Shown: positions 4,212 through 6,725 of the stretch, piece after piece
How the letters are laid out: each line of letters begins with the position of its first letter
How positions within the stretch are numbered: position 1 is the stretch's first letter
NCBI GenBank assembly: GCA_938075565.1
Contig: CALJGU010000030.1
Coordinates: 1 to 64,000, forward strand
Reading direction: 5' to 3'
From: an uncultured Opitutales bacterium
GTDB taxonomy: Bacteria > Verrucomicrobiota > Verrucomicrobiia > Opitutales > UBA2995
Length of the DNA stretch: 64,000 nt
The notes under the pieces: generated by a model
Databases searched by the model: none
Told to the model about the DNA's origin: nothing
What the model saw: only the letters and a program-made list of their open reading frames with translations
Position numbers and translations under genes: made by a program

Positions 4212-4297
4212 GTTTTGAGACGGAAAGACCTCTTAAGATACTTGGAAAGCAAATTCGTTCAATCTTCGATTGATGCCCTAGAATACCTGATTTTTGG

Positions 4298-4963
4298 TTG
4301 ATTTTCATAGGTTCCAGCCTAGCTTCTTCTTCCGTGAGCTTCGTAAAGTCCATCACTCAACCATTTACCGGGTCTGATCAGGCATTGTCTGAAAGAGATG
4401 CGGATTGGCTGGTTGTCCAGCGCGTTCAGGCGGGTGATGTGGCTGCATTTGATGAATTGGTCATTAAATACAGAGAGCGAATTTATTCAGTTATCTACAA
4501 TCTCACCTCCAATAAAGAAGACTCCTTCGACCTCTCCCAGGACGCATTTATTAAGGCATTTCAATCTATTGCCCGGTTTAAGGGTAAGTCTTCGTTTTTC
4601 ACTTGGCTCTACCGAATTTCAGTCAATACCACCCTTTCATTCCTTAAAAAAAACCGCCATCGTAGGTTTTTGAGCTATGAAAATATCTCTGAGGAGACAG
4701 GCACAAGTGACATTATTGAGGTCCTGGCAGCCAAAACCGGCACTGAAAAGCCTACTTTATTGAAAGAATTGCAGCATAAATTGAACGAAGCGCTGCAAAC
4801 GTTGTCTGTTAAGCATAGAACAGTCCTTGTATTGTTCGAAATTGACAACCTGTCCCACCAAGAAATTGCCGAAATCATGAATTGTTCAGTCGGAACCGTC
4901 CGGTCTCGTCTGCACTACGCCAAAAAGCAGCTCCAATCCGAACTGCAAGACCTGCTCGATTAA
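4298..4963 (+). CDS. ECF-type RNA polymerase sigma factor (RpoE-like)
   Basis: Sigma70 region 2 (DLSQDAFIKAFQSIARFKGKSSFFTWLYRISVN) and region 4 (LSHQEIAEIMNCSVGTVRSRLHYAKKQL). Confidence 0.9.
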   Translation: MIFIGSSLASSSVSFVKSITQPFTGSDQALSERDADWLVVQRVQAGDVAAFDELVIKYRERIYSVIYNLTSNKEDSFDLSQDAFIKAFQSIARFKGKSSFFTWLYRISVNTTLSFLKKNRHRRFLSYENISEETGTSDIIEVLAAKTGTEKPTLLKELQHKLNEALQTLSVKHRTVLVLFEIDNLSHQEIAEIMNCSVGTVRSRLHYAKKQLQSELQDLLD

Positions 4964-4972
4964 GTTTCGATT

Positions 4973-5554
4973 ATGTCGGAAAATCCTAACAAATTAAATT
5001 TAGACCAACTGCTCGACCTAAAACGAGCTGAGAAGCCTGCTGACGATTTTTGGGATGGATTCCAGAGGGAATTCCGCCAGCGCCAATTGCAGACCTTGAT
5101 TGAGAAAGAATCTGGATGGAAGCAGACGGTACGCATGTTGTTTGCACGTTCTAGCTTATTGGTCCCATTTTCAGGCGTCGTGGTGGCGCTCTTTGTTTTG
5201 GCTCTTAACTTCAAGCAAGAAGATCCTTTGCAAAAAGGGTATTATGAGGTGGTTGATCTGGTTCAGTCCAACTCCCAACCTTCTTCAGTGGAGACCTCTC
5301 AGGAAATTTCGCAAATTACACCCGATGTAGAAGAAGTTCGCACAAACCCAGTAGACTTATTTCCTGCAGCTGCTAGTTTTGTAATGGATTCGATTCATAA
5401 TGAAGAGCCTGAGCCTCTGAATTATACACGTGAATTTCCAACTTCCACCATTCCAGCTGAAAAGCGGGCGGTGGGTGCCTTGGTATCCTACACCATTGCA
5501 CGCGATAATCCGTCATTTGGCTTTTCTGCTCGGCCTCAGACAATCGGATTCTAG
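4973..5554 (+). CDS. Hypothetical single-TM protein, possible anti-sigma factor
   Basis: Starts 10 bp after sigma gene; soluble N-terminus, one TM (LLVPFSGVVVALFVLALNF), extracytoplasmic C-terminus. Confidence 0.5.
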   Translation: MSENPNKLNLDQLLDLKRAEKPADDFWDGFQREFRQRQLQTLIEKESGWKQTVRMLFARSSLLVPFSGVVVALFVLALNFKQEDPLQKGYYEVVDLVQSNSQPSSVETSQEISQITPDVEEVRTNPVDLFPAAASFVMDSIHNEEPEPLNYTREFPTSTIPAEKRAVGALVSYTIARDNPSFGFSARPQTIGF

Positions 5555-5567
5555 GAGAATCCTTCTG

Positions 5568-6725
5568 ATGAAAGTAGGGTTGAAGAATGTCGGTATCCTA
5601 TCTGGGTACAATCTGATTACGCATTTCGGAAGATCCCTCGTGATAAAGGCTGGTTTCAGCCTAGTCTTGCTCGTTCTGGGAATTTCATCAGGAAATCTGA
5701 TGGCTCAGACCCAAAGTGAATTTAATGCGCTACAACGTCGCATAACAGGTATTTACGATGACAATGCTACGGGTGTAATTCGAGTGTTTGCTGCTCATTC
5801 CACCTTTGATGAACGCGGGGATTTACAGGAAGGGGTCCAAATCGGCTCAGGGTGTTTTATTAGTCGAGAAGGGCACATCTTGGCAGCAGCCTCCGTGGTA
5901 TCGAATTCCAATAGAACATGGTTTGAATATAAAGGAGTCACTTACTCCTCAGAGCTGATTGGAGTTGAACGATCTATTAACCTGGCTCTCTTAAAGGCAA
6001 ATAACCTGCCTGAGGATTTTACTTTTTTCATCCCTGAAGCTAATCAGGCTTTGCCTGATGTCGGTTCTTTAGCGGTTATCATATCTTGCCCGCTGAATCT
6101 CGCGCCATCTCCTTCCTTGACCATGGTTGCTGGGGCTGAGTCCAAATTTGGAGCACGAGAGTTTCCGACCACTCAACTAAGAATAAACAAACGAGTTCGA
6201 GATGGTGAAGGTGGCTCTCCGGTAATCGACTTGAACGGACGGTTTTTGGGAATTCTTGCCTGGTCCGTTCCGGAAATCGAATCAGGTTATGTATTACCTG
6301 CTCGGTCTGTTCTTCGAGTGCGAGACGACCTCCTATTTGCCGGGAAATTCATCCATGGTTGGATTGGAATAGATATTAAAAGTAGATCCACCATTCGGGA
6401 TGGATTACAGATATTTCTGGCGGATATTGTGGAGGGTTCACCTGCTGCTGAAGCCGGCTTGTTGCAAGGCGATGTCTTGGTTCGTATGGGGGATTTTGGC
6501 ATCCATTCATTTTCCGATGTGAGAAACGCCATGTTCTTTGCTCGAGCAGGTCAATTTTTGGATGTTCAAGTATTTCGCGATGGTGTCTTGCAAGACTACA
6601 CAGTCAAAGTAGTCGAGCGACCTGAAGATCAGCCAACGGCTCCTGAACCAGCGGAAGTTACTAATCCTGCTGAAGAAAGCCCTGCCAGCCCTGAAGACGA
6701 GGGAGAGGAAGAAGAGCCTTCCTGA
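5568..6725 (+). CDS. HtrA/trypsin-like serine protease-fold protein with PDZ domain, apparently lacking the catalytic triad
   Basis: Signal peptide; GSGCFISREGHILAAASVV, INLALLKA and DGEGGSPVIDLNGRFLGI align with HtrA motifs; C-terminal PDZ (DIVEGSPAAEAGLLQGDVLVRMGD); acidic tail. ORF track start at 5430 overlaps the previous gene; ATG at 5568 preferred. Confidence 0.8.
   Translation: MKVGLKNVGILSGYNLITHFGRSLVIKAGFSLVLLVLGISSGNLMAQTQSEFNALQRRITGIYDDNATGVIRVFAAHSTFDERGDLQEGVQIGSGCFISREGHILAAASVVSNSNRTWFEYKGVTYSSELIGVERSINLALLKANNLPEDFTFFIPEANQALPDVGSLAVIISCPLNLAPSPSLTMVAGAESKFGAREFPTTQLRINKRVRDGEGGSPVIDLNGRFLGILAWSVPEIESGYVLPARSVLRVRDDLLFAGKFIHGWIGIDIKSRSTIRDGLQIFLADIVEGSPAAEAGLLQGDVLVRMGDFGIHSFSDVRNAMFFARAGQFLDVQVFRDGVLQDYTVKVVERPEDQPTAPEPAEVTNPAEESPASPEDEGEEEEPS

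Follow-up and report, generated by a model that had tools for sequence, protein, structure and literature searches.

The control of envelope-stress sigma factors is understood chiefly from Proteobacteria, in which a live HtrA protease (DegS or AlgW) reads the C termini of outer membrane proteins (OMPs) and the anti-sigma factor has RseB as its guard. DegS and AlgW cut RseA and MucA, the respective anti-sigma factors of E. coli and Pseudomonas, once OMP C termini occupy the PDZ domains of these proteases, and a cut by RseP follows (PMC7593790). RseB and MucB bind RseA and MucA and block DegS and AlgW (PMC8545111, PMC7593790). The PDZ domains of HtrA proteins bind aromatic C termini, with YxF recognized by DegS and the WVF of MucE by AlgW (PMC8545111). 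Some HtrA-like proteins of magnetotactic bacteria are pseudoproteases, among them MamO, in which His and Asp are kept (H116 and D149) and the nucleophile is Thr; MamO also binds metal and carries a C-terminal transporter domain (PMC4794232).

A three-gene unit headed by an RpoE-like sigma gene

The window analyzed here, a stretch of 64,000 nucleotides from an uncultured Opitutales bacterium, contains an RpoE-like ECF sigma gene, a gene for a single-transmembrane (single-TM) protein, and a gene for an HtrA-like protein with an inactive catalytic triad (pseudo-HtrA; P0001 in the window), in that order (Table 1). The initial annotation had placed the HtrA-like gene behind genes for an ECF sigma factor and a single-TM protein, and both are present upstream of it. 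Across the first sets of loci, 89 distinct units have this order, almost all with the sigma gene directly 5' of the single-TM gene, and the single-TM gene lies beside a pseudo-HtrA in 19 of 20 further families across the class; many of these units share ancestry, and their number is not a number of independent events. In Opitutales, YjbQ is often encoded next after the pseudo-HtrA. No published account of such a module in this class was found in the open-access literature.

TABLE 1 Coordinates of the sigma unit and of features within its products (positions in the window)
Feature	Position	Strand	Basis
ECF sigma factor, RpoE-like, 209 aa	4334..4963	+	Sigma70 r2, r4_2; TIGR02939
Single-TM protein, proposed anti-sigma factor (ASF), 193 aa	4973..5554	+	Family alignment, model
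ASF cytoplasmic two-helix segment, residues 10-43, LLDLKRAEKPADDFWDGFQ, proposed sigma-binding part	5000..5101	+	Best-conserved part of family; pLDDT ~90
ASF TM helix, residues 48-80 in model	5114..5212	+	Model; hydrophobic run, basic residues on N-terminal side
ASF periplasmic tail, residues 141-193, ending TIGF	5393..5551	+	dN/dS 0.025
ASF C terminus Ile-Gly-Phe, proposed PDZ ligand	5543..5551	+	Terminal F/Y statistics
HtrA pseudoprotease P0001, 385 aa	5568..6725	+	Sequence, Pfam, AlphaFold2/Foldseek, homologue alignments
Signal peptide of P0001, residues 1-46, ...NLMA	5568..5705	+	Predicted from sequence
Trypsin-like domain without triad, residues 93-229	5844..6254	+	Trypsin_2 E 7e-11 (Pfam)
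Ser109 at catalytic His position	5892..5894 (TCC)	+	Homologue and profile alignments
Asn138 at catalytic Asp position	5979..5981 (AAC)	+	Homologue alignment
Gly215 at catalytic Ser position	6210..6212 (GGT)	+	Homologue alignment
PDZ domain, residues 265-348	6360..6611	+	PDZ_2 E 1e-11 (Pfam)

The unit resembles rpoE-rseA-rseB and algU-mucA-mucB, which also place an ECF sigma factor, a single-TM anti-sigma factor (a role proposed here for the single-TM protein), and a periplasmic regulator in succession, and the sigma factor is RpoE-like: its best specific model is TIGR02939 RpoE (E 9e-46, below the equivalog cutoff). The resemblance ends at the third gene, which encodes a pseudo-HtrA rather than RseB and whose part in sensing is proposed by analogy. 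The GTG start of the sigma gene at 4334 is inferred from conservation within the genus, the mechanical open reading frame beginning at a TTG at 4298. Just 5' of this likely start, the sequence GGTTGATTTTC (4296-4306) is kept, with minor variation, in both the genus and the family, and the sequence 3' of it is unconserved. It may form part of the sigma operon's own promoter; because it occurs only 5 times in the window genome, no regulon could be drawn from it.

The window copy of the single-TM protein matches no Pfam or NCBIfam model, including Pfam anti-sigma domains, and three members of its family match NF052375 (antisigma) weakly. In the model, helices at residues 10 to 19 and 24 to 43 precede the TM helix and the tail is disordered; a 37-row alignment contains the motif LLxLKRxExPxxxFW, in which K17, P22, F26, and W27 are invariant. 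Two helices ahead of a TM helix are likewise found in the class II anti-sigma factor CnrY (PMC7406223). Class I anti-sigma domains often carry the motif Hx3Cx2C (PMC7406223), which is also present at the N termini of ASF relatives from other classes of the phylum (L209:2711-3244 and L213:2311-2958), ahead of KRYEQP or KRHEQP, suggesting that a zinc-type anti-sigma motif was lost in the class under study. Given the CnrY-like helices, the Hx3Cx2C of the outgroup relatives, and the position behind an ECF sigma gene, the single-TM protein is probably the anti-sigma factor of the adjacent sigma factor. Unlike CnrY and class I domains, it has no recognized Pfam anti-sigma domain, and its binding of the sigma factor is putative; it departs from anti-sigma factors of the RseA/MucA type in its short two-helix cytoplasmic part and its conserved aromatic C terminus.

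In the one species pair available for these short stretches, the window genome and its sister species, dN/dS is 0.22 in the proposed sigma-binding part, 0.52 in the linker that precedes the tail, and 0.025 in the last 53 residues. Often, an aromatic-V-x-[D/E/S]-x-hydrophobic motif occurs twice in the tail (FVMDSI and VSYTI in the window, residues ~138 to 172) and may be a second docking element. One genome encodes a second, long anti-sigma-like paralogue that ends in ALTLRF (L118:2125-2907), with no sigma gene detected beside it, as well as a standard unit of sigma factor, anti-sigma factor, pseudo-HtrA, and YjbQ (L117).

Triad loss and purifying selection in the pseudo-HtrA

The pseudo-HtrA shares with the HtrA/Deg proteases (DegP, DegS, DegQ, and AlgW; S1C) its fold and its order of signal peptide, trypsin-like domain, and PDZ domain, but its family everywhere lacks the catalytic triad and scores far under the NCBIfam cutoffs (for P0001, 90 bits against degP_htrA_DO, whose cutoff is 416 bits). 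The reading frame, coordinates, and three substitutions given in the initial annotation (S109, N138, and G215) are correct, and the HtrA-like fold and PDZ domain that it described are borne out by Trypsin_2 and PDZ_2 matches above cutoff. The single-chain AlphaFold2 model has a mean pLDDT of 85.7, and its best Foldseek matches are DegP, DegS, and DegQ (E ~1e-22, TM-score by target of at most 0.84). Aligned to the DegP, DegQ, DegS, and AlgW chains (E 1e-39 to 1e-61), the family profile pairs "ltnasvv" with "LTNNHVV," "tnlalLk" with "SDVAVLK," and "gGegGapv" with "GNAGGPL" of the solved structures. No alternative catalytic geometry is present in the profile alignment or the fold of P0001, and assignment as a DegP/DegS protease is ruled out, there being neither a His-Asp-Ser triad nor a GNSGG motif.

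The orthologues have the same hydrophobic N-terminal stretch as P0001, ending in A-Q. Its single PDZ domain follows the trypsin-like domain and opens with W265-I-G-I, which corresponds in position to the carboxylate-binding loop in HtrA PDZ domains; C-terminal of it, Pfam finds no further domain, and there is only a 35-residue acidic tail. Sequence and model together support a secreted protein with an ordinary HtrA fold and an empty active site.

Loss of the triad extends through the family. The 115 operon-linked homologues come from Opitutales, from many other families and orders of the class, and from a single genome belonging to another class; the catalytic His and the catalytic Asp are missing from all 115, and no orthologue with an intact triad occurs. 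The Asp position holds Asn in 76 of the 115; the Ser position holds Gly in 57 and Ser in 13, the latter keeping Ser alone. A match to P0001 is present in 49 of 53 related genomes, and most of these are orthologues. In the first alignment, the catalytic His is missing from all readable orthologues and the Asp from all except L026, a homologue at a contig edge and beyond the 115, which has Asp together with Asn in place of His and Pro in place of Ser. The Asn at the former catalytic Asp (5979-5981) is far better conserved than the residues at the other two dead positions, being nearly invariant in the order, which suggests that it has a structural role. Cleavage of peptide bonds by the pseudo-HtrA is, on this evidence, almost certainly absent.

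Other HtrA proteins of related genomes (L051-L057) keep His, Asp, and Ser along with GNSGG, and the triads of the two same-genus copies (L056 and L057) read as intact. In a quick tree, in which L187 was counted as a pseudo-HtrA and triads were read individually in part of the other HtrA sequences, all 35 of the latter fall on one side of a branch with 100% support. The named matches of the family in a genome scan (11-row alignment) are Opitutales, Puniceicoccaceae, and Coraliomargarita, from which we infer that the family belongs to Verrucomicrobiota.

The loss of all three triad residues is what would be expected of a decaying duplicate of an HtrA protease, but the chance that this gene is a pseudogene is negligible. 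Compared with a sister that is 95% identical, the window genome shows dN/dS values of 0.013 for the protease-like domain (residues 47 to 255) and 0.035 for the PDZ domain; over the whole gene, the values are 0.052 and 0.11 in the two measurable pairs. The family is conserved in at least 115 loci, with the recurrent Asn noted above, and the reading frame of the window copy is undamaged. The low dN/dS of the protease-like domain and the breadth of conservation thus rule out decay: the gene is maintained under strong purifying selection, as the initial annotation had argued for a nonproteolytic protein.

Selection has likewise kept a noncatalytic HtrA fold in MamO and other magnetotactic pseudoproteases (PMC4794232). 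In contrast to MamO, the pseudo-HtrA lacks His, Asp, and the transporter domain and is partnered with a sigma module, and membership of P0001 in the MamO family is ruled out by its domain architecture and residues.

Within the family, the PDZ domain is the part that outlasts the rest. Its opening of W-hydrophobic-G-hydrophobic is kept in 97 of the 115 operon-linked homologues. In one family (f29), the trypsin-like domain has fallen below the Pfam cutoff in the six proteins scanned, all with a clear PDZ domain (E 4e-9 to 9e-15), and the anti-sigma factors of this family still end in F.

An aromatic C terminus on the proposed anti-sigma factor

The tails of the ASF are nearly unalignable, with a median ungapped identity of 5% over the 20 residues preceding the end. 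Of 89 HtrA-linked tails, 86 (97%) nevertheless terminate in F or Y, as do 54 of 57 tail clusters; aromatic residues occur at 1 to 18% at positions -2 to -20 of the same 89 tails, and F or Y is terminal in 4.5% of 399 flanking open reading frames. All of the further HtrA-linked units (6/6 and 19/19) have the F/Y end, giving 111 of 114 in total, the three remaining units ending in K, M, or N. An aromatic-ended periplasmic protein also controls the Pseudomonas pathway through an HtrA-type PDZ, that of AlgW (PMC8545111), which is the kind of contact proposed here. MucE, however, is a protein apart that activates a live protease, whereas in the present unit the proposed ASF itself carries the aromatic end and the PDZ protein linked to it is dead.

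The aromatic end and the pseudo-HtrA do not coincide throughout. In one family (f13), the anti-sigma gene is mostly followed by its customary downstream neighbors with no pseudo-HtrA in between, and the aromatic end is kept, as it is in L217 and the units from other classes (L209-L211), which end in F or Y and have no adjacent HtrA. A single lineage (f33) lacks both, with no pseudo-HtrA and the aromatic end lost in 5 of 6 units. The anti-sigma factors of f13 (L109-L116, L122, L123, and L125) have a much longer tail with an F end, mostly a conserved -(L/I/V)KF. Because the aromatic end also occurs in units with no adjacent pseudo-HtrA, another PDZ protein may read it; and because it is not exclusive to pseudo-HtrA units, the pairing of the two is plausible rather than proven.

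These same units (f13, L217, and L209-L211) favor an account in which the aromatic end is a degradation cue for the PDZ of RseP, for Prc, or for an active HtrA, with the pseudo-HtrA acting elsewhere (for example, on the FVxDxI segment within the tail) or serving solely as a chaperone for the regulon. Prc recognizes its substrates through a PDZ (PMC7593790), and the RseP-like M50 protease of the window genome (M50 match, E 3e-50) has two PDZ matches. We regard this account as unlikely: it leaves unexplained both the presence of a PDZ protein beside the anti-sigma gene in dozens of families and the persistence of the PDZ past the protease domain. The pseudo-HtrA and the anti-sigma tail probably interact in the periplasm, and the contact is, by a slight preference, that of the PDZ groove with the F/Y C terminus.

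A proposed guard in an envelope-stress pathway

The window genome resembles those with RpoE-type modules in encoding, besides the RseP-like protease and HtrA paralogues, OMPs with aromatic ends: BamA ends in FNFGTRF, and F, Y, or W is the final residue of most of the TonB-receptor barrels. The RseB family (PF03888) has no match in the window genome or in the order members listed. From this absence, and from the third position of the pseudo-HtrA in the unit (the place of rseB and mucB), comes the proposal that the pseudo-HtrA fills the RseB slot, where it would grip the anti-sigma tail with the terminal aromatic residue in its PDZ.

While bound, the pseudo-HtrA would shield the tail from site-1 cleavage, as RseB and MucB do for RseA and MucA. 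The C termini of unfolded OMPs, which are likewise aromatic, would compete for the PDZ and cause the pseudo-HtrA to let go, upon which processing of the anti-sigma factor, first by an active HtrA and next by the RseP-like M50 protease, would free the sigma factor. That the pseudo-HtrA is, within an envelope-stress sigma module, a periplasmic regulatory partner of the membrane anti-sigma factor seems to us an evenly balanced proposition. The sequence of shielding, displacement, and release is more tentative, and its direction, with the pseudo-HtrA as a guard, is drawn from the likeness to RseB and MucB. Similarly tentative is the more general picture of an anti-sigma factor with a built-in, OMP-like aromatic PDZ ligand that is read by a class-wide pseudo-HtrA, such that competition by misfolded OMPs for the PDZ of a dead protease, instead of their activation of a live one, might switch the sigma factor.

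The main rival reverses the direction of control. The pseudo-HtrA would sense OMP ends through its PDZ and, as an activator or adaptor, stimulate or recruit an active HtrA to cut the anti-sigma factor, by mixed oligomers or by allostery; loss of the gene would then silence the stress response. MamO provides a precedent in its noncatalytic activation of the protease MamE (PMC4794232), a possible partner is available in the HtrA paralogues that these genomes encode away from the sigma unit (with triads intact where checked), and the constraint on the trypsin-like fold within the genus (dN/dS 0.013) exceeds the needs of a simple PDZ adaptor. We nevertheless consider such activation rather improbable, as the unit persists in f29, where the erosion of the protease-like domain past the Pfam cutoff is a poor fit to mixed trimers.

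A general periplasmic chaperone or holdase, cotranscribed with the sigma factor and standing outside the signaling, is less probable still. Protease-dead DegP reportedly retains chaperone activity, but a DegP-type cage is not expected of a protein with a single PDZ, and the pseudo-HtrA is steadily linked to the anti-sigma gene, whereas the DegP-type paralogues are located elsewhere. The initial annotation had left the role as sensor, chaperone, or scaffold; its nonproteolytic part is supported, and the neighboring gene, which encodes a likely anti-sigma factor with a conserved aromatic C terminus (a feature new to the present analysis), narrows the choice by pointing to a scaffold with a regulatory role in an envelope-stress sigma module.

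In this module, one dead HtrA appears to occupy the place of RseB, and the proposed ASF has an OMP-like end. Were this end read by the PDZ, sensing and guarding would be merged in one noncatalytic protein. The family also forms a deep natural series from protease to pseudoprotease, extending from a near-intact fold to an unrecognizable protease domain with the PDZ kept.
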